Position numbers and translations under genes: made by a program. Of a DNA stretch of 37,052 bases, positions 5,756 through 37,052 are shown one piece after another (within the stretch, counting starts at the first letter, position 1; each line of letters starts with the position of its first letter). The DNA is from Phycisphaeraceae bacterium (GTDB lineage Bacteria > Planctomycetota > Phycisphaerae > Phycisphaerales > Phycisphaeraceae). The stretch covers positions 1 to 37,052 of the forward strand of contig JANQKT010000049.1 of the NCBI GenBank assembly GCA_028280965.1. Direction: 5' to 3'. The notes beneath the pieces are model-generated. The model saw only the letters and a list, made by a program, of their open reading frames with translations. It was not told where the DNA came from and searched no databases.

Positions 5756-5828
5756 GGCCAGATAGCTCAGTTGGTAGAGCACGGCATTGAAAATGCCGGT
5801 GTCCCCGGTTCAAGTCCGGGTCTGGCCA
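5756..5828 (+). tRNA. tRNA-Phe (anticodon GAA)
   Basis: Cloverleaf with acceptor stem GGCCAGA/TCTGGCC, D-arm GCTCAGTTGGTAGAGC, anticodon stem CGGCA/TGCCG around loop TTGAAAA (anticodon GAA), T-arm CCCGG TTCAAGT CCGGG, and discriminator A at 5828. The 3' CCA is not encoded. Confidence 0.96.
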
Positions 5829-5832
5829 CTTG

Positions 5833-5875
5833 ACCGCACCGCGATGCAGCCCCCTGCATCGCGGTGCGGTTTTCT
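5833..5875 (+). terminator. Strong Rho-independent terminator after tRNA-Phe
   Basis: A perfect 17-bp stem (5833-5849 with 5854-5870) closes a CCCC loop and is followed by TTTCT. It begins five bases after the tRNA ends, so tRNA-Phe is a single-gene transcript. Confidence 0.92.
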
Positions 5876-6116
5876 ATAGGGGCCATTCGAAAACACGCCT
5901 TTATTTATATAGACAGGGTGTTGGCGATCTACCCCCCAAACCGGGCATGGACGGGCGATTAAGGCCGTTCCAAGGACCCTGTGGTGCCTGAAAATGCCGG
6001 ACGGAGCCCTGGCAGGCGTCAAGTGACCGCAGATAGTACGAAAATCACTCCAAAGTGCCATCAGTTCCCCCCTCATTTCTCGCGGTGCGATGGATAGAAC
6101 TAATAGAAGGATGTCT

Positions 6117-6668
6117 ATGTCGGAAGACCAGACCAATCAGCGCTTCGAAATCGACACCCGCGTCGAGCTGACGCGTCTCTGGCTCAAACACCTGCCCGCA
6201 CTCGAGGTCTTTGTCAGCGGCGCCGTCTCAGACCGACACGCCAGAGAAGACATCATCCAATCGACCGCCGAGCAGGTCTCACGCAACTTTGACCAGTATG
6301 ACCGGTCGCGCCCGTTCAACGCCTGGGTGATCGGGATCGCGAAGTATGGCGTGCTGGCTTACTACCGCGCCCGGCAACGCGACCGCCTCGTCTTTGGTGA
6401 GTTGGAACTCGACCTCTTATCCAACGCCGCGGAAAAGGTCTCAGAAGATGTCGACGCCCGGATGGCCGCTTTGGACAAGTGCATGTCCAAGCTCTCGGTC
6501 AATCACAAAGAACTGATGCGCTGGCGCTATGTCGAAGGCGTCAAGACCGGCGCGATCGCTCAGAAGATCGGGGCCAATCCCAACACGGTCTCGGCGACGC
6601 TCCGGCGTGTCCGGCTGGCGCTCGCGGAATGCATCCGCAGGCAATTGGGCTCGAGTGCGGGCCGATGA
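6117..6668 (+). CDS. ECF-type RNA polymerase sigma factor (Rhodopirellula/Verrucomicrobium type)
   Basis: A 183-residue alternative sigma factor that directs RNA polymerase to a small set of promoters. Region 2 (about 20-90) includes DIIQSTAEQVSRNFDQYD and FNAWVIGIAKYGVLAYYRARQRDR. Region 4 (about 118-175) includes LSVNHKELMRWRYVEG and the helix-turn-helix GAIAQKIGANPNTVSATLRR. The pattern fits the planctomycete/verrucomicrobial ECF group. ATG 6117 is chosen because GAAGG (6106-6110) sits six bases before it; ATGs at 6090 and 6111 are in frame but badly spaced. Its stop overlaps the next start (ATGA at 6665-6668), so the FecR/LamG protein is translationally coupled and is the likely regulatory partner. 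Confidence 0.92.
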   Translation: MSEDQTNQRFEIDTRVELTRLWLKHLPALEVFVSGAVSDRHAREDIIQSTAEQVSRNFDQYDRSRPFNAWVIGIAKYGVLAYYRARQRDRLVFGELELDLLSNAAEKVSEDVDARMAALDKCMSKLSVNHKELMRWRYVEGVKTGAIAQKIGANPNTVSATLRRVRLALAECIRRQLGSSAGR

Positions 6669-8503: not shown

Positions 8504-8508
8504 TGTCC

Positions 8509-8556
8509 CGGTGCCGGTTTCTTTCCGGCACCACAAGCGGCGGGGCCGTGTTGGCC
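8509..8556 (+). promoter_or_regulatory. Tandem hairpins between the FecR/LamG gene and the first PEP-CTERM gene
   Basis: First hairpin: GGTGCCGG (8509-8516) pairs with CCGGCACC (8523-8530) across a T-rich loop. Second: GGGGCC (8540-8545) with GGCCCC (8551-8556) across GTGTT. No long T-run follows, so this may be an attenuator or mRNA-end structure rather than a full terminator. The GGCCGTGTTGGCC core recurs at 9388. Confidence 0.5.
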
Positions 8557-8592
8557 CCACCAAATTTACTTCCTTCCGTTTGGAGAATTGAA

Positions 8593-9258
8593 ATGATGAA
8601 TCGTATGTTGATTGCAGGGATCGTGGCGACGAGTGTCAGCGCTGCCGCCAGCGCGAGCCTGATCGCCAACGGCGGCTTCGAGACGAATCTCGATAACGTG
8701 GACGGCCGCGCCGGTATCGGCGCCCCGAACCCGACGAATGTCGAGATCCCCGTGAGCCTGACCGACTGGACCTCGTCCGGTCAGCTGCTGCGTTGGCCCG
8801 ACAGCGAGTCGCTGTTCGGCGGGGTCGACATCGGCACCCCGACCGGTGACGGCGAGGTCGTGCTCAACTTCGGCGGCGTGGGCATCATCTCGCAGGATAT
8901 CACGACCGTCATCGGTGAGACTTACACGATCTCCTACGAACTCGGTGCCCTTGGCGGCGTCTTCGCCCCCGACCCCGACGGCTTTGTTGCTGACATCAAC
9001 GTCCTGGTTGATGGCGTGATCGTTGACACCCAGAGCGTGACCCAGGACGCCGACGGCACGAACCTGGCCTTCACGGCTTACAGCGTCGACTTCGTCGCGA
9101 CCGGCACGACCACGACGATCGCGTTTGAAGAAACCGACGATGTGGCCGGCGACGACTACGGTGCGTTGCTGGACAACGTCTCCGTGGTGCCCGAGCCCAC
9201 CTCGCTGGCGCTGCTCGGCCTCGGCGGCCTGCTGGCCGCCCGCCGCCGCAGGGCCTGA
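8593..9258 (+). CDS. PEP-CTERM protein made of one DUF642-like module
   Basis: A 221-residue exported protein. The signal peptide is about residues 1-21 (MMNRMLIAGIVATSVSAAASA). A single beta-rich module (about 22-196) runs from LIANGGFETNLDNVDGRAGI to DDYGALLDNVSV. The NGGFE start, the ISQDITTVIGETYTISYELG core and the LDNVSV end are typical of DUF642/galactose-binding-like jelly-roll modules. The tail is VPEPTSLALLGLGGLLAARR plus RRA, a PEP-CTERM sorting signal that an exosortase (not in this window) would process. GGAG lies seven bases before ATG 8593. The module recurs in the genes at 9436 and 16271. Carbohydrate binding is a guess. Confidence 0.88.
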   Translation: MMNRMLIAGIVATSVSAAASASLIANGGFETNLDNVDGRAGIGAPNPTNVEIPVSLTDWTSSGQLLRWPDSESLFGGVDIGTPTGDGEVVLNFGGVGIISQDITTVIGETYTISYELGALGGVFAPDPDGFVADINVLVDGVIVDTQSVTQDADGTNLAFTAYSVDFVATGTTTTIAFEETDDVAGDDYGALLDNVSVVPEPTSLALLGLGGLLAARRRRA

Positions 9259-9387
9259 GCCAGGCCGAACGCCGGCGTGCATGAGGATGCCGGCTTGATT
9301 TTGTTCCCCATGCCCCGCCGTGGCTGAACCCGTGACGGGGCCATTGAAGGGCCCAGGCCCTGAGCGTGTTGTTCCCATGATCCGGAT

Positions 9388-9405
9388 GGCCGTGTTGGCC
9401 GACTT
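9388..9405 (+). promoter_or_regulatory. GGCCGTGTTGGCC element with T-rich tail
   Basis: The 13-base sequence at 9388-9400 is identical to 8542-8554 and lies at a similar distance (about 35-40 bases) before the next start codon. It can fold as a short GGCC/GGCC stem with a GTGTT loop and is followed by GACTTTATTCCCC. A weak second hairpin, GCCGGC/GCCGGC, sits at 9271-9294 right after the previous gene. Function unknown; attenuation or RNA processing are the obvious options. Confidence 0.4.
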
Positions 9406-9435
9406 TATTCCCCTTTCCTTCGGAGGACTCGAACG

Positions 9436-10953
9436 ATGAAATGGCATGTTTCTAAGCTCTTGGCTGCGGGCGCGGTGTGCGGATTCGCGCACGCCGCCTC
9501 GGCGCAGTCGTACTGGATTGACCTGCAGGGCGACATCAATCACCTCGGCTTTGGCGGCCAGACCGACCCGGTCTTGGAAACCGACGATATCGGCGGCGGG
9601 ACCTGGAACGCCTTCGAAGTGCAGTCCATTGATCTCGCCGGCGTCTCGAGTTTCTCGACCGGCCCGATCTCCCTGCCTCTGGTCGATTCGACCGGCGCGG
9701 CCAGCGGCGTGACGTTCCAGGTCGGGAGCGCCGCCAACGACATTACCGGCTGGGCCGGTGCCGCGGGCGCGGACGCGCTGCAGGGCGACTATCTGATCCA
9801 GTTCGAGGACACGTTCGGGGACGCCAATTTCGGTTTGATTAACCCCAGCTCCGTGCTGGATTTCAGCATCACCGGGCTGACGGCCAACACCAGCTACGAC
9901 CTGACCTTCTTCCACGGCGCTAACAATGACGACCGTGGCCTCGATTTTGTGGCCAACGGCGTGGCGGCCTCGGTGACCGGGGCCACCATGCAAACGAGCA
10001 CGATCTCCGTGACCACCAACGGCGCGGGCTCGATCATCGGCACCAGCACGCTGCTGGCCGGTGCCGACGAAGGCAACTGGTCCGGCCTGGTCATCGGCGA
10101 CCTGCCGGCAGAACCGCCGCCGCCGCCGCCGATCCCCGACCTGGGCCTGATCGCCAACGGCGCGTTCGAGATCAACGCGGACGGCGTCGAAGGCCGAGCA
10201 GGCATCGGTGCCCCGAACCCGACGAACGTCGAACTGCCCGCGAGCCTTCAGGACTGGACCGTTGACGGCCAGATCCTGCGTTGGCCAGACGGCACATCGC
10301 TGTTTGGTGGCGTTGACATCGGCGACTCAGGCGATGCCGGCGAAGTCGTGGTCAACTTCGGCAACCTCGGCTCGATCACGCAGAGCATCACCACTGTGAT
10401 CGGCGAAGAGTACCAGATCACTTATGACCTGGGCGCATTGGGTGGCGCGTTTAGCCCGGACCCCGATGGTTTTGTCGCCGATATCGACGTCCTGGTTGAT
10501 GGCGTCGTGGTCGATACCCAGAGCGTGAGCCAAGACGCCGACGGCACGAACCTGGACTGGACAACCTACACGGTCAACTTCACCGCCACGGGCACCACGA
10601 CGGAGATCAAGTTCGAGGAAACCGACGACGTAGCCGGTGACGACTACGGCGCGATCCTCGACAACGTTGGTGTGTTCCTGGTCGGCTTCGCGCCCGCGGA
10701 CCTGGACCAGGACGGCGACGTGGATGACGCGGACTTCGCGCTGTTCTTCGCCGCGTTCTCCGGACCGGGCGTGCCGACGGGCAACCCGGCGGCCGACCTG
10801 GACGGCGACACGGACACGGACGACGCGGACTTCGGCCTGGCGTTCGCCGCGTTCACCGGCCCCGGCGGCGCCGCGGCCAACGTGCCCGAGCCGGCCAGCC
10901 TCGCGCTGCTGGGCCTCGGTGGCCTGCTCGCCATGCGCCGTCGGCGTGCGTAA
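9436..10953 (+). CDS. PEP-CTERM protein: N-terminal beta domain, DUF642-like module, dockerin-like doublet
   Basis: A 505-residue exported protein. Order: signal peptide (1-24, ending AASAQ); an unrecognised beta-rich domain (about 25-222) with LDFSITGLTANTSYDLTFFH and GNWSGLVIGDL, similar in style to secreted adhesive domains; a proline linker (PAEPPPPPPIPD); a DUF642-like module (about 237-415) close to the whole of the preceding gene product; two dockerin-like calcium loops (about 420-478, DLDQDGDVDDADFALFFAAF and DLDGDTDTDDADFGLAFAAF); and a PEP-CTERM tail (483-505). GGAGG nine bases before the ATG is a good ribosome site. It follows its single-module paralog by 177 bases and probably arose by duplication plus domain gain. 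Confidence 0.88.
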   Translation: MKWHVSKLLAAGAVCGFAHAASAQSYWIDLQGDINHLGFGGQTDPVLETDDIGGGTWNAFEVQSIDLAGVSSFSTGPISLPLVDSTGAASGVTFQVGSAANDITGWAGAAGADALQGDYLIQFEDTFGDANFGLINPSSVLDFSITGLTANTSYDLTFFHGANNDDRGLDFVANGVAASVTGATMQTSTISVTTNGAGSIIGTSTLLAGADEGNWSGLVIGDLPAEPPPPPPIPDLGLIANGAFEINADGVEGRAGIGAPNPTNVELPASLQDWTVDGQILRWPDGTSLFGGVDIGDSGDAGEVVVNFGNLGSITQSITTVIGEEYQITYDLGALGGAFSPDPDGFVADIDVLVDGVVVDTQSVSQDADGTNLDWTTYTVNFTATGTTTEIKFEETDDVAGDDYGAILDNVGVFLVGFAPADLDQDGDVDDADFALFFAAFSGPGVPTGNPAADLDGDTDTDDADFGLAFAAFTGPGGAAANVPEPASLALLGLGGLLAMRRRRA

Positions 10954-10972
10954 GTGAATCGATCCTCCTTCG

Positions 10973-11017
10973 CCCGGCCGATGCCTAACCGCATTGGTCG
11001 GGTTTACTACCCCTTTT
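10973..11017 (+). promoter_or_regulatory. Stable intergenic hairpin before the first pseudopilin gene
   Basis: Bases 10973-10984 pair with 10991-11002 (12 pairs, two of them G-U) around loop CTAACC, followed by TTTACTACCCCTTTT. It lies 19 bases after the preceding stop and could act as a terminator or attenuator. The core CGATGCCTRACCGC recurs at 11851 before the next pseudopilin gene with the same fold. Confidence 0.6.
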
Positions 11018-11031
11018 ACAAGGCCTCTGCC

Positions 11032-11841
11032 ATGAATGCATACCGACGCCAGGGCTTCACGCTGATCGAACTGCTTGTGGTCATCTCCATCATCGCGTTG
11101 CTGATCGCTATCCTCCTGCCGGCGCTGGGTGCCGCTCGAGAATCGGCGCGGACAATCCAGTGTACCTCCAACGTCAGGCAGTGGGCCACGTTGTACACCG
11201 CGTATTCCGTAGACAACAACAACAAGTTCATGCCACAGGATCAGGGGGCGGCCAACCAGGACTGGATGGGCGTGCTTGAGGACTACTCCGAAGACGACGC
11301 CGGGCGCACCTGCCCCCAGGCATCGGAGGCCCAGGGGCCGGACCTGGGTTTCGGGCAATACGGCGGGACCAACTCGATGTGGCGGATCACGCTGGGCTCG
11401 GATGTTTCGGACCACCGTGAAGGGAGCTACGGGATCAACACCTGGGCATCAGACGTCAGCGATACGCCTGACAACAGGCTCTGGCGCGGACCGGCAACAC
11501 GCAATTACTACTTTGAATCACCAGACAAAGCCAAGTCCGTTTCAGATGTCCCGGTGTTTGGCGACAGCGCCTGGATCAACGGCAACCCCGATGACCTGAC
11601 CCCGGCGAACAACCCCGGCGGGCGTGTCCTGCCGAGCGCAACATTCAACGAAGACCGGGCCGGGTCTCCCGTCTGGGCCTTGGATATGGGCCGCTACCAG
11701 ATGCTCCGGCACAACAACCGCGGCATCAATATGTCGTTTGCCGACGGGTCCGCGCGGTTCATCGAGCTCGAAGAACTGTGGGACATGGAGTGGCATACAC
11801 AGTTTGATCGGGACGACAGCGTCGATGTCCCCTGGAATTAG
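11032..11841 (+). CDS. Pseudopilin-like protein (type II secretion/DUF1559-like)
   Basis: A 269-residue protein with a class III (prepilin) signal: MNAYRRQG then [16 protein letters not shown], predicted to be cut after Gly8, leaving an N-terminal hydrophobic helix for assembly into a pseudopilus or membrane anchoring. The soluble part carries [20 protein letters not shown] and, near the end, [17 protein letters not shown], a version of the H-X9-DG motif typical of planctomycete pseudopilins but with ten rather than nine residues between His and Asp. Such proteins are numerous in planctomycetes and of uncertain function. ATG 11032 is chosen because translation from there gives the standard short prepilin leader. 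Confidence 0.88.
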
Positions 11842-11846
11842 TTTGA

Positions 11847-11872
11847 CGGTCGATGCCTGACCGCGTGGACCG
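11847..11872 (+). promoter_or_regulatory. Second copy of the pre-pseudopilin hairpin
   Basis: Bases 11847-11856 pair with 11863-11872 (ten positions, one G-U and one G-G mismatch) around loop CTGACC. The core CGATGCCTGACCGC differs by one base from the element at 10979-10992, while several outer stem bases differ in both arms and still pair. It begins six bases after the previous stop codon. Confidence 0.5.
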
Positions 11873-11913
11873 ATTCCCCCCGTCCATCAATGATTTTTAA
11901 CCGGAATTCTCCT

Positions 11914-12768
11914 ATGATCAGCCCCCGCCGTCGTGCCTTTACACTCATCGAATTGCTGGTAGTCATCTCGATCATCGCGCTCTTGATCGCGATCCTGCTG
12001 CCCGCGTTGGCCGAAGCCCGCCAGGCGGCGCGGCTGACGGTTGACAAGGCGAATATCCGCAGCAACGCAACGATGCTCTTCGCCACTTCCGCCGATTTCA
12101 ATGACAAGATGCTTGAGGTGAAGAAGGCGGCGGGCCTGGAGGGTGGCGGCAACCCGGAGAACATCTTCGGGACCAACGGGAAGACCATCCGCGAATCGCA
12201 CAGCTTCTGGTCGGGCTACAGCTCGGAATTTAGTTTCATGATCTGCCCGCTCGCCCCCGAAAACCCCCTTGACCCGAGCGATGTCGATGCGTTGGAGTCC
12301 CAGGGCATCCGCACGGTCTACTCCAACTACACGCAGTATTGGGGCAGCGGCGTTGTCTACCCGGGTAAGAATGAAAGGCTTGGGTTCAGCAGCCTGGAGC
12401 AGAGCAACTGGACCTGGTTCGACCGTTCGGGGCAGACGGAAATCAAGACGCGCGTGCTGCTCAGCGACCTGGACTTCCAGGGCGGTGGTGTGATCGAATC
12501 ATCGCACGGGGATGTGAAGTCGGGGAGTATCGAAGAGGTCGTGATCCCAGGGTGGAACGGCTCCCGTGGGTTCTGGGCCTCGGTCTGGTACCAGAACCCG
12601 CTCGAGGCCCGGGATAGGCGATACGACGTCAACTACGCCTTCGTGGATGGGTCGGTGGACACGCTCGGAGACCTAAACTTCTTTCCGCGTGAGCCGGACA
12701 ACCGGGTCGAGCCATTCTTCCGTGTTGGGTCTCGCGTCTACCAGATGCCGACGACTGAAACAGAATAA
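11914..12768 (+). CDS. Pseudopilin-like protein (second copy)
   Basis: A 284-residue protein with a prepilin-type leader, MISPRRRA then [16 protein letters not shown]. The residue before the cut site is Ala rather than the usual Gly, so processing may be less efficient or absent. The soluble part is unlike its neighbour beyond the helix: [20 protein letters not shown], a [20 protein letters not shown] stretch, and [19 protein letters not shown] near the end, which keeps an xFVDGSV form of the terminal DG motif. ATG 11914 is preferred over 11890 because it has GGA eight bases upstream and gives a standard leader. Confidence 0.85.
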
Positions 12769-12862
12769 TTTGTTGGAGCGCAATTGTTGAAGCCGGTGAT
12801 CCGTGATTTAGCATTAGAAACGGTTGCAGTTGCATTGCAGAATGCGCCAACACCGGTTGAAT

Positions 12863-12881
12863 AGCCGACTGCAGATCGGCT
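12863..12881 (+). promoter_or_regulatory. Hairpin upstream of the propeller gene
   Basis: AGCCGA (12863-12868) pairs with TCGGCT (12876-12881) across CTGCAGA, 40 bases before the next start, within a 153-base gap that is AT-richer than its surroundings. It may be a terminator for the pseudopilin transcript or part of a leader; no strong T-run follows. Confidence 0.35.
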
Positions 12882-12921
12882 TGTAAAGAATTTGTGCCTC
12901 TGTTGTTGAAGGGTTGAAGGA

Positions 12922-15900
12922 ATGCTTGGATTGTTTAACCATCGTGTTTTGGCCGTTTGGGTATTGTCGATCTGTGCCGCTGGTGGCCTTGTTCAAGACG
13001 CCGTATCACAGACCCTGGTCAACGACCTGAACGGGACGCTGACACTGGTGCCTGGCGGCCGACCGGTGCCCACCTTCGTGACGCAGATCGCGTTCAAGCC
13101 CGGCGACAACAACCACGTCTACGTCGCCACCGCGGGCGGCGGGGTCCTCCGCTACGACTACGACCCCAACGGCGCGAACGGCAATGCGGTCTTCTCCAAC
13201 CAGCAGACCGCCGTGCCCACCGCGATTACCAACGTCGGCGGGGTCAACGGCTCGCTGGGCCTGGCCTTCCACGAGGACCCGACGCTCGGGACGGTGATGT
13301 ATATCGCCCCGGCGGTCCCGTTTGTTGCGGGTGGCAGCTTCGTGCGTGTGCAGACGATCGTCCGCCTGACGGACGTGGATAACGACGGCGTCTGGGGCGA
13401 GGCCGGCGAGCTGAACCAGACCATCGTCAACAGCGTCGCCGTCACGACCCTGCACGAGATCAACCAGATGCGCGTCGTCGGCGACACGCTGTACGTCAAC
13501 ATCGGTATCCGCACGCAGAACGGCGGGCAGACCGCGGCGCAGAACCAGGCGATCGGCGGGACGGGCGTCGATCAGTCCGACCCGGGCGAGACGGCGTACA
13601 CCGGCTGCCTCTGCTTTATCGAAGACCTGACGCTGCTTTCGAACGATACGACCACGACGAACATCGCGGGCTTCACGATCAACGGCATCTCCGCGGGCGG
13701 GACGCTCACCAACGACGACCGCGTCCGCGAAGACATCCAGCCGTTCATCTCGACCGATCCGAGCAAGCTGCGCAACTACTCGACCGGCTTCCGCAACAAC
13801 TACGGCCTGGGCATCGATGACGACGGCGAGATCTGGGTCTCGATGAACCAGAACGAGAACCCCAATGCGCAGGACCAGCTGCACCGTGGGGTGACCTTCA
13901 AGTCCGACAACGAGTTCTTCAAAGGCAACGACCGGATGGGGGACTGGAAGACAACCGGCGACGAGGCGACCGGGTCGCTGACCGTGGACAACCTGGCCGT
14001 CCTCAACGCCGGCTGGTTCGACCCGGGGAACAGCAACCCCGCCTTCTCGCTCCTGGGATTCAACGTCTCGGCCAACGGCATGGCGTTCTACCCCTCGGAC
14101 TTCCCCAACACGCCGCTGGCCGGCGATGTGCTGGTGTGCCGCAACTCCGGCGGCGGCAGCGACATCATCCACGTGGACGAGGCGACCGGCGGGACGCAGC
14201 TTGTGGTTGAAGGCCTCGCCGGCGCGTTGGATATCGAGCGTGACCCCTTCGGCAACTTCATCGCCGGCGGCTCGACGCAGCTGATCCTGCTCCGTGTTGA
14301 TGAGGGCGACGCACCGCCCCCGCCCGGACAGGCCGACGCGATCCACCTCAGCCTCGGCGAGGAAGTCGGTGCGCCCGGTCAGGAGATCCTTAACGGGGAT
14401 ACCTGGAACAACCTGGTCGGCAGCGCGGGGACCGACAACAGCCTCCAATACGCCGACGGCTCGCCGGCGACGGGCATCAGCGCGACGCAGTTTGTTGCAG
14501 ACGCCGAGTTCGAAGGCAACAACCCGAACGACGCACAGGGTGCCGGCTACGTCACCGGCCTGGACAGCGCGACCACGACACTGATCTTCTCCGGCGGCGC
14601 GAGCCTGAACGGCCAGTGCCAGTTGACGGTCAACGGCCTACCGGTCGGTTCGGAGTGGACGGTCCTGGTTTATGCCGGGCTGAACGACGGAACCAGCCGC
14701 CAGCAAACCCTCACGGTCAACGGCACGGGGATCGTTGCGCCGATCTTTTCAACCTATAACTCGGGACAGCCGGTGACCTTCAGCAATGTCGTGGTCGGCC
14801 AGGACGGGCAGATCCAGGTCACCGCGGACGACGAGACCAGCGGCAACAGCACAGCGGTCACCTTCATCCAGGCCGTCTCCCTGATCCCGGTACCCCCGCC
14901 GGTCGATCCATCCGCCTTCGTCGGCGCCCACCTGGCCTACGGCGGCGGGGCGTTCGGCGAGCCGGAAACGGCATTCCGGTTCTACCCGTACAGCGACGGC
15001 GCCCTGTTCGGCGGGCCCAATGATGACAACCCGGGTGAACAGCCCTTCGACCTGTTCGGCGGGTCCGGCCTACCCGTTGACCCTTCCGACGGTGTCCTGA
15101 ATATCGATGAACTGCCCGCGGGCACCTACAGCTTCCTGTTCCAGGAAAACAACACCATCACCGTCGAGTACGAGTTCGAGCTCATCACCGTGCAGGCGCC
15201 GGGTTCCTCGGCCAACCCACCGACCAACGACCTGACCGAAGCCCCCGGTGTTGACAGTATCTCGAGCGACTACGCCAACCCGAGCAACCTGACCCTGGGC
15301 CTGGGCAGCAACATCATCAGCGGTGAGGTGGGCGAGTCGGGCATCCCGGGAACCATCCTGGCCGATGGCTCAGACAACAACACGGATGGCGACTACTTCA
15401 CGATCACCGTGCCCGACGGCCTGGTGCTCGACCAGATGATCGTCAACCAATACAACAACGGCCTGCAGCGCGGCTTCCTGATCTACGCCCCGGGCTCGAC
15501 GCTGCAGGGCATCACCGCCCAGAACTCGGGCATCGCGGCCGACAAGCAGCCGCTGCTGGGTGGCGAGACGGCGACGTTTGCGAACTACTCGAGCTACTCC
15601 CGCGGCATCAACCGGGTCCTTATCGATATCGATAACCTGCCCAACGACGGCGCAGACCTGACCGCCAGCGACTTCGAGTTCCGCGTCGGCAACGATGACA
15701 CACCCGACAGCGCCGGCGTCTGGCCGGCCGCGCCGGCACCGTCCTCGATTTCGGTACTCGCCGGGGGCGGGGATAACGGCAGCGACCGCGTCGTCATCAG
15801 TTGGCCCGACAACGCGATCGACAACACCTGGCTGCAGGTGTCGGTCAAGGCCAACAACAACACGGCCCTGCCCGAAGACTTCACGCTGCCGACATCGGGT

Positions 15901-27540: not shown

Positions 27541-28467
27541 TTACGCACGGCGACGCCGGGCTACCAGCAGGCCGCCGAGGCCGAGCAGCGCGAGGCTGGT
27601 CGGCTCGGGGACGACGAAGAACTGATCACCCGCGAAGTTGTTGAGATCAACGCCTCCGACGTTACCGGTAAAGCCACCCGTTCCATCGCCACCCAGGTTA
27701 CCTTGGCCAACCGGCAGGCCGCCCAGGAACTGGTTGGACAGGAAGTTGTGGTCCGAGTTGTTGACCATGGCGCTGATCTTGAAGTCGCCGGCCGGGCTGC
27801 CGATCGCAGCAAGCGGGATCGCGAGTTCAATGCCGGTCTGAACGGCCTGGGCCGCGGTTTGATCCGCGGCGTTGCCGGCGGTACCGCCGACACCGGCCGC
27901 GTTAGAGTTGTCATAGGCAACACCGACACCCGCCAGGGGCAGCGCCGCCGCATTCACGCCGGTAAACGACCCGCCAAAGACATCGGCCGCCGCTTCGAAG
28001 GCGCCGAGGCCGCCACCGACGGTTGCAATATCGATGTCGAATCTATCACCACCGAAGTTGCCACTACGGATGATGATCATGTAGTCGGCTTCGAATCCGG
28101 TATCAAACGTAAAACCGTTGTGGTTATTGGCCCAGTTGTCGTTCTCGGGGTTGGTGCCGCCGTTGTTGGCGTCGGCAGTGAGTGTGTTCTGGCCGCCGGC
28201 AACCGTGTCGAAAAAGAGGTTGAGCTTGTTGAAGTTGCTCTCGACCTGGCCTGTGATAGTGAGATAGAGCGTCCCGCCGGAGACCTGCGCGTAGGCGGCG
28301 TTCAGCTCGCTCTGGTTATCACCAAAACCGGTCTCGATCGTCTGAACCGAAACGGCCGAGCCGTAGCCGTCACCGGCGATGCTGCCGTCCAGCGTCACCG
28401 CCGGGGCATGACCCGCCAGGGCCACGGCCATGGCGGCCGCTAACGTAGTCGAAGCTGTTCTTTTCAT
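27541..28467 (-). CDS. PEP-CTERM protein, paralog A, without dockerin-like module
   Basis: A 308-residue exported protein of a PEP-CTERM family I cannot name. Signal peptide about 1-24. The body starts LDGSIAGDGYGSAVSVQTIE and contains SELNAAYAQVSGGTLYLTIT, ESNFNKLNLFFDTVAGGQN, a GFEADYMIIIRSGNFGGDRF segment, and FKISAMVNNSDHNFLSNQFL. It ends DLNNFAGDQFFVVPEPTSLA with the usual GLGGLL and RRRRA tail. CGGAGGA precedes the ATG. The order of strands suggests a DOMON/CBM9-like sandwich, which is unproven. It is nearly collinear with the upstream gene but lacks the dockerin-like doublet, and its PEP motif follows the body directly. Confidence 0.85.
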   Translation of the reverse strand: MKRTASTTLAAAMAVALAGHAPAVTLDGSIAGDGYGSAVSVQTIETGFGDNQSELNAAYAQVSGGTLYLTITGQVESNFNKLNLFFDTVAGGQNTLTADANNGGTNPENDNWANNHNGFTFDTGFEADYMIIIRSGNFGGDRFDIDIATVGGGLGAFEAAADVFGGSFTGVNAAALPLAGVGVAYDNSNAAGVGGTAGNAADQTAAQAVQTGIELAIPLAAIGSPAGDFKISAMVNNSDHNFLSNQFLGGLPVGQGNLGGDGTGGFTGNVGGVDLNNFAGDQFFVVPEPTSLALLGLGGLLVARRRRA

Positions 28468-28523
28468 GAGTTCCTCCGAAGCAAAAGGGGTTTAGAAAAA
28501 CAAAGCACGAGCAACAAAACATC

Positions 28524-28557
28524 AAAAGGCCGGCCCCCGCTTGACACAAGGGCCGAC
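28524..28557 (-). terminator. Hairpin terminator between the two paralogous PEP-CTERM genes
   Basis: On the minus strand GTCGGCCC (28557-28550) pairs with GGGCCGGC (28536-28529), one G-U pair, followed by CTTTTG. It lies 14 bases beyond the stop of the 28571-29728 gene and about 60 bases before the next start. Confidence 0.55.
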
Positions 28558-28570
28558 CCTTCCGGGGTCA

Positions 28571-29728
28571 TTATGACGCTCGCCGACGACGCGCCATCAG
28601 CAGGCCGCCAAGGCCGAGCAGCGCGAGGCTGGTTGGTTCGGGGACGCTCGCCGGCACGCCAGGACCGGTGAACGCGGCGAAGAACAGGCCGTAGTCCGCA
28701 TCGTCCACATCGCCGTCGCCGTCGATGTCACCAAGAAAATTCTCAGGCGGGCCGTTGTCCGGGCCGGTGAAGGCAGCGAAAGCCAGGCCGAAATCCGCGT
28801 CGTCGATGTCGCCGTCGAAATCAATGTCGGCACGACCGGCGAGGGAGATCTGGAAGAACTGATCGCCGTCAAACTGGTTCAGATCGATCAGGGACACGTC
28901 ATTGTTGAAACCGGCAGCACCGTCGCCACCAAGGTTGCCCTGCGGCGCAACGAACCCGCCGAGCGACTGGTTGGACAGAAAGTCGTGGTTCGAGCCGTTG
29001 ACGTGGGCGCTGACCTTGATCGCGCCGGTCGGGCTGCCGATCTCCGACAGCGGAATCGCCAACTCGATGCCGGTCTCTACTGCGATCGCGGCGAGCGGGT
29101 CGGCGGCGATGGTGCCGCCCGCGATACCCGCGGTGTTCGAATTATCGTAGGCCACGCCGACGCCGTTGGTCAACGCCGATGCATTGGCGCCGGTGAAGCT
29201 GCCGTTGAATATATCAAAAGCCTCCTCGAAACCTGCCAGACCACCGCCGACCACCGCGTAATCGACATCGAACTTGTCGTTACCGAAGTTCCCGTTGCGC
29301 AGGATGAGCAGGTAGTCGGCCTCGAAGCCCGCATCGAACGTAAAACCGTTGCCGTTCCCGTCCGCGCTCGGCCCCTGCCCCGAGTAATTCTCGGCCCAGT
29401 CGTCGTTGTTCGGGTTGGTCCCGCCTTCATCGGTGCCCGGGCCGATCTGGTTCTGCCCGCCGGCGACCGAGTCGATGAAGATGTTCAGCTTGTTGAAATT
29501 GCTCTCCAGGTTGCCGGTAATGGTCAGATAGAGCACGCCGTTATCGATCTGCGCGTAAGCAGCGTTGAGTTCGCTGGCGTTGTCGCCGAAGTCGGTCTGC
29601 GTCGTCTGGACCGACAGCGCCCCGCCGTAGCCGTCGCCGGCGATGCTGCCGTCGAGCACCGGTTGAGCAAAAGCGTTGCCGGACAGGCCGGTCAAGGCAA
29701 TGATGAGTGATGCGCGCGTGAACTGCAT
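28571..29728 (-). CDS. PEP-CTERM protein, paralog B, with dockerin-like doublet
   Basis: A 385-residue exported protein, collinear with the 27541-28467 product: LDGSIAGDGYGGALSVQTTQ, SELNAAYAQIDNGVLYLTIT, ESNFNKLNIFIDSVAGGQN, GFEADYLLILRNGNFGNDKF, AIKVSAHVNGSNHDFLSNQS. After the body (QFDGDQFFQISLAG) it carries two dockerin-like calcium loops (DIDFDGDIDDADFGLAFAAF and DIDGDGDVDDADYGLFFAAF) before the PEP-CTERM tail. TGGAGGA lies before ATG 29728. The pair is a tandem duplication in which the module was gained or lost between the body and the sorting tail. Binding of amylase products or of the cell surface is possible but not shown. Confidence 0.86.
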   Translation of the reverse strand: MQFTRASLIIALTGLSGNAFAQPVLDGSIAGDGYGGALSVQTTQTDFGDNASELNAAYAQIDNGVLYLTITGNLESNFNKLNIFIDSVAGGQNQIGPGTDEGGTNPNNDDWAENYSGQGPSADGNGNGFTFDAGFEADYLLILRNGNFGNDKFDVDYAVVGGGLAGFEEAFDIFNGSFTGANASALTNGVGVAYDNSNTAGIAGGTIAADPLAAIAVETGIELAIPLSEIGSPTGAIKVSAHVNGSNHDFLSNQSLGGFVAPQGNLGGDGAAGFNNDVSLIDLNQFDGDQFFQISLAGRADIDFDGDIDDADFGLAFAAFTGPDNGPPENFLGDIDGDGDVDDADYGLFFAAFTGPGVPASVPEPTSLALLGLGGLLMARRRRAS

Positions 29729-29791: not shown

Positions 29792-30715
29792 TTATCGCAG
29801 GTGCGGGCTGATGTAGACTTCGGCAAACTCCTCGGGTGAGGAGGTCTCCGAGTGCCCGTCCGCGAAGTTGATGTTCATGGCGTTGTTATGCCGGTCGTCT
29901 TCGGGCGACTGCTGCTCGATAGGCAGCTTCTTGCTGGCCGAAGGTTGGTTTAAGATCGCTTCAAGCGTGCCCCGTTCGCCGCGGACCCAGGAATCACGTG
30001 CAGAATACATCAGGACATCGCTGCGGTTCTCCGGCGTGCCGGACGTTGTGCCACGCCCACCGCCGTCGGCGAAGAACATCGTCTGCGTCGGGTTCTTGAT
30101 CCGGTTCAGGTCGCCGGGTATCGCCGGGCCGCCGAAGGGCTTGATCGATGTGCCGAAGCCCCAGAACGCGCCGCCGGCATTGTTGCCGGTGTTCTGCCAG
30201 GTCGTCGCCTCGGCGTTGGGTGCATACGAGAGCGGAGCAAAGTCGCTCAGGCCCGAAGAGATGTTGTTGCCGACATAGTGCCCTTCTGTGTACGGGTCGC
30301 TCGGGCAGAGGAAGCCCGCGGAAACTTCCGGATCGGCTTGATCGAAAGCGATGTTTTCTCCGCCGCCCATGTACGGGACCAAAGCGCTCGCCCAATCCTT
30401 GATCCGATACGACGAGTTCGGGTAGCGCGCGACCTTGCCCCGCAGCTCATTGGGGATCCGGCCCGAGCCCTGCCAGGCCAGGTCGGTGCTGGTCAGCGGG
30501 ATGTGGTCTTTGTAATCGATCGAGTAGGTCTGCGCTGCCAGACCCATCGACCGGACGTTCGAAAGGCACTGCGCACTCCGTGCCGCGTTACGCGCCGCGC
30601 CTAAGGCCGGCAGCAGGATCGCGATCAGCAGCGCGATGATGGAGATCACAACCAGCAACTCGATGAGCGTAAACCCACCGCCTCGTTGCGCGGTGTTTGT
30701 TTGGTGTCCTGGCAT
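29792..30715 (-). CDS. Pseudopilin-like protein (DUF1559-like), first gene of the leftward arm
   Basis: A 307-residue protein with a prepilin leader, [14 protein letters not shown] then [16 protein letters not shown], cut after Gly14. The body has [40 protein letters not shown] and near the end [17 protein letters not shown], a perfect H-X9-DG motif. AGGAG upstream of ATG 30715 gives a good ribosome site. It leads a minus-strand set with two PEP-CTERM paralogs and the amylase and is transcribed divergently from the LacI-type regulator. The conserved location of pseudopilins next to exported glycan-related genes, here and at 11-12.8 kb, suggests a surface role beyond classical secretion pili. 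Confidence 0.88.
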
Positions 30716-31137: not shown

Positions 31138-32220
31138 ATGGCCGAAACCTCGCCACCACAACCCGCCGCCAATGGCCGAGCCAAAGGCAAGCCCCGGGGC
31201 GGCAAGCGCGTCGGCATCCGCGAGATCGCCGCGCAGGCCGAGGTCTCGGTCGCGACCGTCTCGATGGTCCTGAATAACAACCCCAAGATCACTGGCGAGA
31301 CCCGCGCCAAGGTCACCAAGGTCATCGATCAACTCGGCTACCGCCCCAACCGCATCGCCCAGTCGCTGTCTAGCAAATACACCAACCTCCTCGCCGTCCT
31401 CATGCCGACGCTGCGGCACACCATGGCGGACCCGTACTTCGGCGAGCTGATCTCCGGTATCTGCGACAAGGCCGCGCGCCTCGGCCAGAAGATCATGCTC
31501 GAGCACGCCAAGCCGGACTTCGTCCGTGAGAAGCGCCACATCGACCTCTTCGACCGCCGATACATCGACGGCATCCTCTGCATCGGTTTCAGCGACAAGC
31601 ACACGTTCCTGGGCGACTTCGCCGAACGCGGTGACCTGGCGCTGATGGTCAACAACGTCGGCTTTGGGCTGGACCACGTCGTCTGCGACTACGCCTCGGG
31701 CGCCGAACAGATCATGACCTATCTGCTCCAGCTCGGGCACCGGCGGATCGGCATGCTGCACGGCTCGCCGGACGTCTACACGATGCGCCAGATGATGGAT
31801 ACGTACAAGAAAAGCATCGCCAGCGCGACCGGCGGCGAAGACGACACCCTGCTGGTTGACGGCCGGTTCACCGAAGAGCACGGTTACACCGCGACCTCAC
31901 AACTGCTCAGCAAGCACCCGGACGTCACCGCGATATTCGCGGGCAACGACAAGATGGCGCTGGGCGCACTCCACTGCGCCGCCGAGCGCGGCCTGTCCGT
32001 GCCCGGCGACCTCTCGGTGGTCGGGTGCGACAACATCCAGTACGCCGCGTTTGTCAACCCGGCGCTCACGACCGTCAATACGCCCTTGTACGACACCGGC
32101 ATGCTTGCCTGCGAGCGGCTCATCGACCGCATCCGCGGGCGCAAGCGCCCCGTGGCCGAGGTGCTGCCGACACACCTGGTACTCCGCGACTCGACATCGC
32201 TTGCTAAGCAAACACAGTAA
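31138..32220 (+). CDS. LacI-family transcriptional regulator
   Basis: A 360-residue DNA-binding regulator. After a basic 24-residue extension (ANGRAKGKPRGGKR) comes the LacI helix-turn-helix (about 25-48, GIREIAAQAEVSVATVSMVL) and the hinge helix YRPNRIAQSLSS (about 68-79). The rest is a periplasmic-binding-like sugar sensor: NLLAVLMPTLRHTMADPYFG, YIDGILCIGF, LGHRRIGMLHGSPD, DVTAIFAGNDKMALGALHCA, LSVVGCDN and LTTVNTPLYDTGMLACERLI. It most likely responds to maltose or a maltodextrin, since a GH13 lipoprotein and a sugar transporter follow, though ligand choice is inference. No ribosome site is seen before ATG 31138. Palindromes at 31075-31108 are its likely operators. Confidence 0.93.
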   Translation: MAETSPPQPAANGRAKGKPRGGKRVGIREIAAQAEVSVATVSMVLNNNPKITGETRAKVTKVIDQLGYRPNRIAQSLSSKYTNLLAVLMPTLRHTMADPYFGELISGICDKAARLGQKIMLEHAKPDFVREKRHIDLFDRRYIDGILCIGFSDKHTFLGDFAERGDLALMVNNVGFGLDHVVCDYASGAEQIMTYLLQLGHRRIGMLHGSPDVYTMRQMMDTYKKSIASATGGEDDTLLVDGRFTEEHGYTATSQLLSKHPDVTAIFAGNDKMALGALHCAAERGLSVPGDLSVVGCDNIQYAAFVNPALTTVNTPLYDTGMLACERLIDRIRGRKRPVAEVLPTHLVLRDSTSLAKQTQ

Positions 32221-32351
32221 ACCCGCGCCCAACGCCGATCAGGCCCAGGCACAAGCGACATCGCCCTACTCGACCCTGGCGACGACATCCCGACAGACCC
32301 TTGAGCCGCCGATGCGATCAGACCGGCGGCTCCATGAACCAGGAGACTGCC

Positions 32352-34886
32352 GTGCCGATCAACCGCTCCTCCCGGCCGCTATGTTTGATGCTCTTGCTGG
32401 TGACCGCCCTGGCCGCCTGCGGATGCTCGGCACAGGCACGCGCCGCTAATCACAGGCACGCCCACACATTTGTGTACAGCCCCGCCGAAGGGATCAAGCC
32501 GCGGACCGTACACCTCGCCGGGCCGTTCAACGGCTGGTCGAAAGAAACCACGCCGATGGCGAGGCGCAACGACGGCAGTTGGGCCGTCACGATCGAGCTC
32601 TCCTCCGGCGTACACCAATACAAGTTTGTGATCGATCAGACCCACTGGGTGAACGACCCGAAATCAGACAAGGAGTACGAAGAAGAAGACGGCCACGGCG
32701 GTGTGAACTCGGCGGTCCTTATCGGCTTAGACGTCCGAACCCTCGGCCCGCCGAAGCCCAACGCCGTCAACCCCGCCGCGCTGCTGCACGACCCCAATTC
32801 CCCAAGCGACCTGCAAGTCGCGGCGAACGACCTGCTTGTGGTGTCCGTGCGGGCCCAGGCCGACGATGTGCAGCGTGTCTTCATCCTGATCAATGACGCG
32901 TTCAACGATGCTGACAAGACGCGTGCGGTTGAACTCCTTAAGATTGAAACGCTACGCGGGATGGATCGCTTCACCGGCGTCGTGTCGGTCAGAGGCGATA
33001 CGGTGAGCTACCGCATCAAAGCCGTCGATGGCGACGACCAACAACTGCTCCCGACAAAGGGAAAACCCAACAGGGTATCCATGAACGAAGGCTTCACGAC
33101 ACCCGAATGGGCCAAGCACGCAGTCTGGTATCAGGTCTTCCTCGAGCGTTTCCGCAACGGCGATCCAACCAACGACCCCGGCGACTTCCACTATGAAAAT
33201 CTGGTCCCCTGGACCAGCGACTGGTGGGCCACCCTGCCCGGCGAGGCCAAGGGCAAGCACAACGTCTACCTCGGCAACGGCAACGTCTGGAACCGGCGCT
33301 ACGGCGGAGACCTACAAGGCCTGCAGGAGAAACTGCCCTACCTCCGCGAACTCGGCATCAACGCGATCTACCTCAATCCGATCTTTGAGGGCGAGTCGAT
33401 GCACAAGTACGATACGGCCGACTTCAGGCATGTCGACGACAACTTTGGCGTTAAGCAAAGCAAACCTTTCAATGGCTTGCCCGGCGAGACCGACGACCCA
33501 GAGACCTGGCGGTGGAGCGGGTCTGACCGCGTCTTCCTTGATTTTCTGAAAGAATCGCATCGGCAAGGCTTCAAGGTGGTGATCGACGGCGTATTCAATC
33601 ACGTCGGCGTCGCGCATCCATTTTTCCAGGACGTGCTAAAGAACGGACGCAAATCCCGATACGCCGACTGGTTCGAGATCACCGACTGGGGCCTTGATAC
33701 GAACGCCGGCAAGCCCAGCAGCTACGGCAAGCCCGGCGGGATCCAGTGGGTTGCGTGGGACCAGCCCAACGGCGCCCTCCCCGCGTTCAAGAAAGACGCG
33801 AAGCTCGGCTTAGCAGAGGGTCCGCGCGAGCACATCTTCGCGATCACCCGCCGGTGGATGGACCCTAACGGTGACGGCGACCCTTCCGACGGTATCGATG
33901 GCTGGCGTCTGGACGTTCCCGGCGACATCCCGCACCCCTTCTGGATCGAGTGGCGCAAGCTCGTCAAATCTATCAACCCCGACGCATACATCACCGGCGA
34001 GATATGGCAGTGGGCACACCCCTGGCTGCAAGGCGATCAATTCGATGCAGTGATGAACTACCGCTTCGCCTCCGCGCTCCAGGACTTTTTCATCGATCAG
34101 AGAACCGCGATCACGCCGACCGAGTTCGGCGCACGCCTGACAGAATTGAGCTATAGCTACCCATTGCAGGTCGCGTTTGTGAACCAGAACCTGATCGGCA
34201 GCCACGACACCGACCGCTTCGCCTCGATGTTCGTCAACCCCGACCTGCCCTACGACGGCAAGAACCGCCTGCAGGACAACGGCCCGGGCTACAACCCCCG
34301 GAAACCGAACGATCTTGAGAGAGCGAAACAGCGCCAAGCGATCGCGTTCCAGATGGCCTTCGTCGGCGCACCAATGATCTACTACGGCGACGAGGCGGGC
34401 ATGTGGGGCCCAGACGACCCGAGTAACCGGATGCCGATGGTCTGGAAAGACCTCGAGCCCTACGACGGCGAGGGCGTCGCGTTCGATCAGGATCTGTTCG
34501 ATTGGTATAAGCGTTGTATCGCAGTACGCAACACCCTGCCCGCCCTCCGCACGGGTGTCTACAAGACGACCTACACTGACAATATGATGGGGATCGCAGT
34601 ATACGAGCGCCGGCTTCATGATCAGGTTGTGTACGTTGCTATCAACCGCAGCGAGCGCCAAGCCAGCCTCTCCCTGGCGGTTGATCCGTCCTTAAACGGC
34701 AAGGCTATCATCGACGCCTTGCACGCAACCCAAATCATGGATCCCAAGGATGCGGCTACAAGGGCGACCATCTTGGGCCCAACCGATCCGATCGGCCTGC
34801 CCCGTGTGACGGACAATCTTCTCAAAACACACCTGCCGCCATGGACGGTGCGTGTACTGATCGCTGAAGATCAGCTTGACAATTAA
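32352..34886 (+). CDS. GH13 alpha-glucan hydrolase, lipoprotein, with N-terminal CBM48-like domain
   Basis: An 844-residue enzyme of the neopullulanase/cyclomaltodextrinase-like GH13 group, expected to hydrolyse maltodextrins. A lipoprotein signal ends LLLVTALAAC (Cys23). An E-set/CBM48-like domain follows (about 37-125, VHLAGPFNGWSKETTPM), then a second sandwich (about 155-245). The catalytic barrel (about 253-720) has region I DGVFNH (Asp412-His417), region II DGWRLDVPGD with nucleophile Asp521, region III TGEIWQ (Glu550), region IV GSHDTDRF (His618-Asp619). GTG 32352 is chosen because AGGAG lies six bases before it; ATG 32334 and TTG 32301 are in frame. The stop overlaps the next ATG by one base (TAATG at 34884-34888), so the transporter is translationally coupled. 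Confidence 0.93.
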   Translation: MPINRSSRPLCLMLLLVTALAACGCSAQARAANHRHAHTFVYSPAEGIKPRTVHLAGPFNGWSKETTPMARRNDGSWAVTIELSSGVHQYKFVIDQTHWVNDPKSDKEYEEEDGHGGVNSAVLIGLDVRTLGPPKPNAVNPAALLHDPNSPSDLQVAANDLLVVSVRAQADDVQRVFILINDAFNDADKTRAVELLKIETLRGMDRFTGVVSVRGDTVSYRIKAVDGDDQQLLPTKGKPNRVSMNEGFTTPEWAKHAVWYQVFLERFRNGDPTNDPGDFHYENLVPWTSDWWATLPGEAKGKHNVYLGNGNVWNRRYGGDLQGLQEKLPYLRELGINAIYLNPIFEGESMHKYDTADFRHVDDNFGVKQSKPFNGLPGETDDPETWRWSGSDRVFLDFLKESHRQGFKVVIDGVFNHVGVAHPFFQDVLKNGRKSRYADWFEITDWGLDTNAGKPSSYGKPGGIQWVAWDQPNGALPAFKKDAKLGLAEGPREHIFAITRRWMDPNGDGDPSDGIDGWRLDVPGDIPHPFWIEWRKLVKSINPDAYITGEIWQWAHPWLQGDQFDAVMNYRFASALQDFFIDQRTAITPTEFGARLTELSYSYPLQVAFVNQNLIGSHDTDRFASMFVNPDLPYDGKNRLQDNGPGYNPRKPNDLERAKQRQAIAFQMAFVGAPMIYYGDEAGMWGPDDPSNRMPMVWKDLEPYDGEGVAFDQDLFDWYKRCIAVRNTLPALRTGVYKTTYTDNMMGIAVYERRLHDQVVYVAINRSERQASLSLAVDPSLNGKAIIDALHATQIMDPKDAATRATILGPTDPIGLPRVTDNLLKTHLPPWTVRVLIAEDQLDN

Positions 34887-37052
34887 TGCAGAGAATCGCA
34901 CGCATCTTGCGGTATGCCATGGGATTGCTCGCCATCGGCTTGGTGATCTGGTCGTTTTACGACGTCGGTCACCGGACTGTCGGCAGCATGCTTGGCGGTC
35001 CCGAGGCTGATGTGACGCTCACCGTGCTGCACTGGGGCACGCCGGAGGAAGAGCAGATCGTTCAGGACATGATCGATGCTTTCGAGGCCGAGCACCCCGG
35101 CGTGAAGGTGCAGCGGATCCATGCGGCTGCGTACGATGCCAAGCTCAAGACGATGCTCGCCGCTGGCACCCCGCCGGACCTGTTTTACCTCAAGCCGGAT
35201 TGGGTCGGCGACTTCGCCGAGTCGGGCATGCTGCTCGACCTCGAGCCTTACGCACAGCAGGAGCGAGAAGCGGGACAAGCCGACTGGCTCGACGACTTCT
35301 ACCCCGAGTTGATGAACGCTTACCGCTGGGACGATCAGCGCGGGATCACCGGCGGGTCCGGGCGGCTCATCGGGCTGCCCAAGGACTTCACTCCGGCGGT
35401 CATGTACATCAACGTGGACCTGTTCCGGCAGGCCGGCTATAGCGACCCACAGCTTGAAGCAGTCCACACAAGCGGCTGGACTTGGGCGATGTACCGCGAG
35501 GCCATGGAGCGCATCGCAACACTCTCTCCTGAAGATAGTCCATCCCAGCGCATCTTCGGCGGGACGATCAAGCACTGGGGCGACCCGATGCGCAACCTCT
35601 TCTGGTCGTTCGGGGCAACCGTCGCTGGAGGCGAAGAGGGTGAAGACTTCACCGACCTGCAACTCGACAGCGAAGCCGGCCTGTCGTGCATGCGGTTCAT
35701 CCGCGACGTCCGCCTGATCGACAAGAGCGTGCTGAACCCCAGCGGCCTGTCGCAGAACGACGACGACCTTTTCATCCGCGGGCGGATCGGCTGCCTCGGG
35801 CCCTACGGGCGGTGGTTCACGCCGAAGCTGCAGGATGTCGATTTTGATTGGGATGTCGTCCCCATCCCGCACGCCCAGGGCGTCGAGCCGAGCAGCTTCC
35901 TCTTCAGCGTCGCCTGGGCGGTCAGCTCGCAGACCAACCACCCGGACGAGGCGTTTGAACTCCTCAAGTCCTTAACAGACAAAGTCGGCCAGGAACGCAC
36001 GGCCCAGAGCGGGCTGGCGATGCCCGCCTCCCGATCGGTCGCGAACTCCCCCGCGTTCCTGGACAGTGGCATGGGCCCGGAGCATATCCGTGTTTTTCTG
36101 GATAGCGCGGAAAACGGCCGGTTGCCACACTTCCCGAGATTGCCGCAATTTAATCGCATCTTTGAGTCGCAGATGAAGCAGACGCTGGTCCTGGACGCCG
36201 TGCCCCCCGAACAAGCCGCGGCGGACGTCAAGAGCCTGTGGGCGAGCGAACTGGCTTCGCCGCTCTATACCAAGCAGTACCGGAAGATGCCTTGGCTTAC
36301 TGTCATCGGGGTCACCGCGGTTGTCGTTGCCATCGCACTGGCAGGGCTTGTCCTGATCGCCCGGCGGGAGAAACTCGGCTCGCTGGCCGGCGCCGAACAG
36401 CGCACCGGCTGGCTGTTTATCAGCCCGTGGGTGATCGGTTTTGTGCTGCTGGTCATCGGGCCGATCCTGCTCGCCCTCCTGCTGAGCCTGACCAAGTGGT
36501 CGGCGATGGCGCCGCTCAGTGAAGCGCGTTATGTCGGGCTGGACAACTACCAACACATGTTCGCCTACGACCCGGAGTACGCGCATTCGCTCTGGGTCAC
36601 GGTGTATTTCACGCTGCTCGCCGTACCGACGACGCAGGTCGCGGCGCTGCTCATCGCGGTGCTGATGAACGTGAAGGTCCGCGGGATCGAGGCGTGGCGG
36701 ACGGTCTATTTCCTGCCATCAGTCGTCACCGGCGTCGCGCTGGTCACACTCTGGATCGCGATGTTCGACAACGACCGCGGCGTGATCAACGCGCTGATCG
36801 AGTTCGTCGGCCTGCCCGCGCCCGACTGGTTCGGTGCCGATGGCGGCGTGTTCGCCATCCCCGCGATCGTCATCATGTGCCTCTGGGGCGTCGGCGGCGG
36901 GATGGTCATCTACCTCGCGGGCCTGAAGAACATCCCCGCCCCGCTCTACGAAGCCGCCCGGATCGTCGGCGCCGGCCCGGTCCGGCAGTTCTTCAACATC
37001 ACCCTCCCGATGCTCAGCCCCCTGATCTTTTTCAACCTGGTCATGGGCATCA
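34886..37052 (+). CDS. Fused sugar-binding protein and MalF-type ABC permease (partial, C-terminus off right edge)
   Basis: One reading frame, no stop, from ATG 34886 to the right edge (722 codons). Residues about 5-22 form a membrane anchor (AMGLLAIGLVIWSF). Residues about 48-455 are a family 1 extracellular solute-binding domain: VTLTVLHWGTPEEEQIVQDM, FEAEHPGVKVQRI, MLAAGTPPDLFYL, LIGLPKDFTPAVMYINVDLF, GGTIKHWGDPMRNLFWSFG. A second hydrophobic helix (about 470-491) leads to a permease: TGWLFISPWVIGFVLLVIGP, VGLDNYQHMF, WRTVYFLPSVVTGVALVTLW, and the ATPase-contact EAA loop YEAARIVGAGPVRQFFNITL (about 688). Frame was checked at 35996, 36599 and 36959. These parts are usually separate proteins (MalE, MalF). 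A MalG-type permease would be expected beyond the edge. Confidence 0.9.
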   Translation, partial: MQRIARILRYAMGLLAIGLVIWSFYDVGHRTVGSMLGGPEADVTLTVLHWGTPEEEQIVQDMIDAFEAEHPGVKVQRIHAAAYDAKLKTMLAAGTPPDLFYLKPDWVGDFAESGMLLDLEPYAQQEREAGQADWLDDFYPELMNAYRWDDQRGITGGSGRLIGLPKDFTPAVMYINVDLFRQAGYSDPQLEAVHTSGWTWAMYREAMERIATLSPEDSPSQRIFGGTIKHWGDPMRNLFWSFGATVAGGEEGEDFTDLQLDSEAGLSCMRFIRDVRLIDKSVLNPSGLSQNDDDLFIRGRIGCLGPYGRWFTPKLQDVDFDWDVVPIPHAQGVEPSSFLFSVAWAVSSQTNHPDEAFELLKSLTDKVGQERTAQSGLAMPASRSVANSPAFLDSGMGPEHIRVFLDSAENGRLPHFPRLPQFNRIFESQMKQTLVLDAVPPEQAAADVKSLWASELASPLYTKQYRKMPWLTVIGVTAVVVAIALAGLVLIARREKLGSLAGAEQRTGWLFISPWVIGFVLLVIGPILLALLLSLTKWSAMAPLSEARYVGLDNYQHMFAYDPEYAHSLWVTVYFTLLAVPTTQVAALLIAVLMNVKVRGIEAWRTVYFLPSVVTGVALVTLWIAMFDNDRGVINALIEFVGLPAPDWFGADGGVFAIPAIVIMCLWGVGGGMVIYLAGLKNIPAPLYEAARIVGAGPVRQFFNITLPMLSPLIFFNLVMGI

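Follow-up and report, generated by a model that had tools for sequence, protein, structure and literature searches.

A conserved fusion of a family 1 sugar-binding receptor to a MalF-type permease in a Phycisphaeraceae bacterium and its relatives

The fusion gene and its continuation on a second contig

The window analysed here, 37,052 nucleotides from a Phycisphaeraceae bacterium, is the whole of contig C54 of a 4.16 Mb genome in 263 contigs. Genes for a LacI-family repressor and a GH13 hydrolase precede an open frame at its 3´ end (Table 1). The frame is free of stops from 34886 to 37051, where it reaches the end of the window, and encodes in order an N-terminal membrane helix, a complete SBP_bac_1 domain (residues 54–369, Pfam E 2.4e-28), a second membrane helix and a MalF/UgpA-type permease, in which the BPD_transp_1 match (residues 588–720, Pfam E 2.4e-7) is clipped by the contig end. 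The UgpA and MalF profiles of NCBIfam both match the permease below their equivalog cut-offs, the former with E 1.4e-27 and the latter over residues 551–713. The first-pass annotation had read the frame as a complete family 1 binding domain and a MalF-like permease in one polypeptide, and the open frame, the Pfam domains and the predicted helices bear this out. Elsewhere in the window, the minus strand encodes two adjacent paralogous secreted proteins with C-terminal PEP-CTERM sorting signals (27541–29728), the second of which carries a dockerin-like D-x-D-x-D repeat recognised by eye, and a DUF1559 (SBP_bac_10) protein with a prepilin-type N-terminal methylation motif (29792–30715).

Table 1. 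Features of the fusion locus in window coordinates.
Feature	Position	Strand	Evidence and remarks
LacI-family repressor, probable operon regulator	31138..32220	+	Pfam LacI and Peripla_BP_3; homologue in relatives
GH13 alpha-glucan hydrolase, neopullulanase/cyclomaltodextrinase-like	32334..34886	+	Pfam Alpha-amylase, E 9e-49; AMPK1_CBM
SBP-MalF fusion gene	34886..37052	+	Open frame, Pfam, continuation, AlphaFold; 5´ 722 of 799 codons
TM1 / signal anchor, residues 2–35, motif W[AS]F-x-x-V-G-x-R	34889..34990	+	Model helix, hydropathy
Extracytoplasmic solute-binding domain, residues about 41–465	35006..36280	+	Pfam SBP_bac_1; structure matches
TM2, linker helix between receptor and permease, residues 470–494	36293..36367	+	Model helix; hydropathy 2.94; 73/73 relatives
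MalF/UgpA-type permease core, residues 499 onward	36380..37052	+	BPD_transp_1; UgpA profile, E 1.4e-27; last 77 residues on C138
EAA loop, EAARIVGAGPVRQFFNITLPMLSP	36950..37021	+	Sequence; EAARIDGAG on C138 and in relatives

Because C54 is a complete contig that ends inside the permease, the C-terminus of the fusion is absent from the window. A DNA search located the last 136 bases of the window on contig C138 of the same genome with 99% identity, and joining the two contigs at an exact 31-base match yields a fusion of 799 amino acids. On C138, the fusion (locus L054) occupies the minus strand and runs to about C138:16657, the start of MalG overlaps its stop (ATGA), and beyond MalG lie a convergent GH31 gene and a convergent MalK/UgpC-type ATPase gene, which was assigned by sequence motifs and homologues and is situated approximately 3.7–4.9 kb from the contig end. 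The extension proposed in the first-pass annotation has thus supplied the C-terminus, MalG and the ATPase gene. The overlap contains two mismatches, one of which turns EAARIDGAG on C138 into EAARIVGAG in the window (36965–36967, residue 694). More than 90% of the relatives share the C138 form, and the window form is therefore a strain variant or a contig-end error; the EAA loop, first described as normal, is so on C138 and deviates in the window copy. The end of C138 (16890–17077) repeats about 57 bases of its own sequence in inverted orientation, which is probably an assembly artefact and would account for the break in the gene.

The junction in related genomes

A sequencing or assembly artefact, in which a lost stop or a frameshift has joined truly separate SBP and MalF genes, would be compatible with a metagenome-assembled contig that stops within the gene, with the mismatches at the contig end and with the inverted end of C138, but it is contradicted by the relatives. 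In a protein search of 60 related genomes, 16 full-length fusions were found in 15 genomes, none of them with a stop; G001 and G009, each a single contig, are among these genomes. About 85,000 species genomes were scanned with one search pattern per half, a design that is biased toward fusions, and the scan returned 78 loci, 73 of which have both domains in one frame; the remaining five are either clipped by contig ends (three) or consist of two adjacent genes (Cohnella L151 and FCPU426 L148). Among 293 other Planctomycetota genomes, searched as a less biased sample of the phylum, at least 15 gave a one-frame match that covers both halves, and many others matched by the permease alone or the SBP alone. 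At the junction itself, the 44 codons of 36200–36331 can be aligned gap-free to seven relatives; identity is 0.64–0.77 at the second codon position compared with 0.34–0.55 at the third, and the first position also exceeds the third, which shows in-frame protein constraint on the junction. The gapless alignment and the codon-position pattern exclude the hidden frameshift at 36200–36330 against which the first-pass annotation had cautioned, and its further concern, that relatives might always carry two genes, is answered by the fused loci of the database scan. Because the same fusion occurs in independent relatives, the artefact was rejected as an explanation and is considered extremely improbable.

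Predicted topology, neighbouring genes and likely substrate

Hydropathy places a helix at approximately residues 4–25 and a strong helix at 473–491, followed by the helices of the permease core. AlphaFold, run with 35 sequences, gave a confident two-domain model (mean pLDDT 87.9, pTM 0.81) in which helix 2–35, a two-lobed receptor, helix 470–494 and the permease follow one another. In structure comparison, the top matches of the receptor are all sugar-type SBPs (Z 43 to 35), including Lmo0181 with cycloalternan (5f7v; Z 43.0, rmsd 2.6 over 383), AbnE (6rjy; Z 39.9) and binders of maltose, trehalose and cyclodextrin. A membrane helix precedes the receptor in 69 of 70 relatives, and all 73 relatives have one at the SBP-MalF junction, where 37–62 residues separate the SBP from the MalF core. 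Pfam, hydropathy, the model and the relatives together uphold the proposal of a true and conserved fusion, the N-terminal anchor and linker helix of which would hold the receptor at the permease. With a helix on either side, the receptor would be the loop connecting TM1 to TM2 in a MalF-like chain of eight helices. Two helices likewise precede the core of E. coli MalF, and by analogy the receptor may occupy a position equivalent to a loop of that protein.

The stop codon of the GH13 gene (TAA, 34884–34886) and the start of the fusion (ATG, 34886) share one base, TAATG, as the first-pass annotation had noted. The GH13 protein has a CBM48/AMPK1_CBM N-domain, a signal peptide and a possible lipobox, LAAC, recognised by eye and pattern; its best NCBIfam matches, maltodextrin glucosidase and cyclomaltodextrinase, fall under their cut-offs. 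No NCBIfam equivalog was found above cut-off for either the fusion or the GH13 protein, so that the substrate cannot be named from families. Most close relatives have LacI, GH13, the fusion and MalG in this order on one strand, with a LacI homologue 5´ of GH13 and the fusion in L055–L061 and L064, and a more distant clade has a divergent GH13 gene and an ATPase gene after MalG. MalG is located directly downstream of the fusion in 71 of 72 relatives, and an ATPase gene is located within 3.6 kb in 40 of 57. From the synteny with GH13 and LacI, we infer that the substrate is most likely maltodextrin or another alpha-gluco-oligosaccharide, although the best sequence match of the receptor among solved SBPs is a binder of arabino-oligosaccharides. 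Other PF01547 proteins of the same genome are encoded in separate frames beside permeases (C140 and C168), and tethering is thus one option in this organism and not the rule.

Three readings would loosen or extend the tether. The N-terminal helix has a position and length compatible with a cleaved signal peptide, and its removal would leave the receptor with a single anchor, as in GlnPQ. However, the motif W[AS]F-x-x-V-G-x-R is conserved, V27 and R30 being the same in all 17 sequences compared, which is unexpected for a removed peptide; no A-x-A site is visible and helix 2–35 is continuous in the model. Cleavage is consequently unlikely and, because of this conserved motif, we think that TM1 is kept. 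Free MalF might also be produced from an internal start or by cleavage of the translated fusion, leaving the receptor tethered only in part: an ATG at 36287 lies within a conserved MPW motif, and the early part of the junction includes a Met in 52 of 73 relatives. This ATG has no good ribosome-binding site directly upstream (CAGTACCGGAAG), the Met is absent in several relatives (L066, L069 and L070), and the narrow range of junction lengths suggests a structural use, which makes additional free MalF very improbable. Finally, the tethered cut-and-import machine envisaged in the first-pass annotation is sound in its genetic part, since GH13 directly adjoins the fusion in 49 of the 62 loci with enough upstream sequence. 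A physical complex, with the exported GH13 enzyme docked on the tethered receptor, could draw on this conserved neighbourhood and on the TAATG overlap, but genetic linkage is expected of any shared pathway, the two genes are on opposite strands in 43 of these 49 loci (six share a strand), and a lipobox occurs in three of 11 sampled same-strand GH13 homologues, the window copy not counted. We regard such docking as highly unlikely.

The favoured reading, to which we assign a probability of roughly 0.88, is that the gene encodes a subunit of a CUT1-type ABC importer in which an SBP is fused to the N-terminus of a MalF-type permease. A MalF-type permease, MalG, an ATPase gene and a family 1 sugar SBP, all recognised from sequence, point to this class, and the importer likely has exactly one captive receptor per MalF-MalG heterodimer. 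The N-terminus would lie in the cytoplasm and TM1 would take the chain into the membrane; the receptor would fold outside, and TM2 would lead the chain back to the cytoplasm ahead of the six-helix MalF core. Together with an unfused MalG and two ATPases, the fusion would provide one captive receptor per transporter. An oligosaccharide supplied by the neighbouring exported GH13 enzyme would be bound and passed on with no need for a diffusing receptor, and, as in the maltose system, receptor closure would send the signal to the ATPases.

Relation to known importers and evolution of the fused state

The first-pass annotation had regarded CUT1 binding proteins as normally free or lipoproteins. This view is not supported, given the MalE-MalF fusion of Bdellovibrio, reported as a transporter for maltose/maltodextrin in which MalE and MalF are fused (Licht et al., 2019, Res Microbiol 170:1-12). 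PMC7756565 cites this fusion as transport-competent, under transport-competent supercomplexes (its ref 38), and PMC9045158 cites the same paper. The MalE domain from Bdellovibrio is deposited as PDB 6ffl under the molecule name 'Maltose/maltodextrin transport permease homologue'. We take this entry and the published fusion to be the same Bdellovibrio bacteriovorus protein, with which the title and molecule name of 6ffl are consistent. As in the present family, a single family 1 sugar SBP is fused N-terminally to MalF in one polypeptide of a CUT1 importer; the present family differs in its GH13/LacI neighbourhood and Planctomycetota distribution. The two fusions probably arose independently, because the SBP profile of the present family ranks free SBPs (AbnE, 7.9e-77; Lmo0181, 3.4e-61) far ahead of the MalE domain from Bdellovibrio (6ffl, 5e-21), the comparison being confined to the MalE domain. 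A search of open papers returned no published CUT1 fusion from Planctomycetota or Phycisphaerae, which is weak evidence. The present fusion is a wide, well-conserved new branch beside the already known sugar CUT1 fusions.

In OpuA and GlnPQ, the receptor is covalently joined to the transmembrane domain (PMC11065425, PMC8025302), and the contrast drawn by the first-pass annotation with these osmolyte and amino-acid importers is correct as far as it goes. OpuA has two SBDs and GlnPQ has tandem SBDs, compared with one SBP per MalF-MalG heterodimer in the present fusion, which has a receptor from a different SBP cluster, apparently anchored on both sides. Its permease is of the MalF type with a separate MalG, and not a homodimeric osmolyte or polar amino-acid domain. 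The E. coli MalFGK2-MalE system has a permease of the same CUT1 family, but its MalE is free in the periplasm. The large periplasmic P2 loop known from the structure of E. coli MalF is absent from the present fusion. Cohnella xylanilytica L151 and the FCPU426 MAG locus L148 have the same gene order and MalF cores that are 45–47% identical, but, unlike the fusion, they have two genes and an SBP that is likely a lipoprotein; these adjacent unfused genes probably show what the ancestral state looked like.

On a tree of 67 MalF cores, built by a quick method with a midpoint root, the fused state requires three changes, compared with a mean of 14.5 after shuffling. The main fused clade (43 rows, support 89) contains Planctomycetota, KSB1 and Chthonomonadales. 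Two more fused groups, L144/L146 and L071–L073, branch near the unfused MalFs L148, L151 and L040, and a distant fused clade (L047, L050 and L074) may be separate. It is possible, although we hold this tentatively, that captive-receptor CUT1 importers were taken up independently and became stably established in Planctomycetota and some other phyla, with the receptor as a loop between two MalF helices, one per transporter and usually linked to an exported GH13, and that further fusions in related lineages (the divergent SBP-MalF clade L047/L050/L074, where a glycosidase-like domain is also present in at least one MalG) point to selection for surface-coupled sugar capture.

Several MalG frames near distant fusions are unusually built. 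L074 (G010:C27) has two tandem MalF/MalG pairs (5808–10393 and 10394–15117), each MalF with an N-terminal SBP_bac_1. Its MalG frames (761 and 782 amino acids) have a partial Glyco_hydro_42 match ahead of BPD_transp_1, with E about 1e-5 (above Pfam's cut-off), a possible fusion to a glycosidase-like domain. Beside distant SBP-MalF fusions, L071 (5201–7024, minus strand) and L073 (3915–5816, minus strand) have MalG frames of about 600 amino acids with a large insert and BPD_transp_1 confined to the last 180 residues.

For annotators, an SBP and a permease in a single frame are no error. Where the binding protein is free, it is usually in excess over its transporter and scavenges by diffusion. 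Fusion sets the ratio of receptor to transporter at one and does away with the docking step, and a large conserved natural family with unfused relatives of the same gene order (Cohnella and FCPU426) offers a direct test of the effect of tethering on affinity, rate and capacity. A fused sugar importer gene, of a kind already characterised in Bdellovibrio, is common to many Planctomycetota and some other bacteria.
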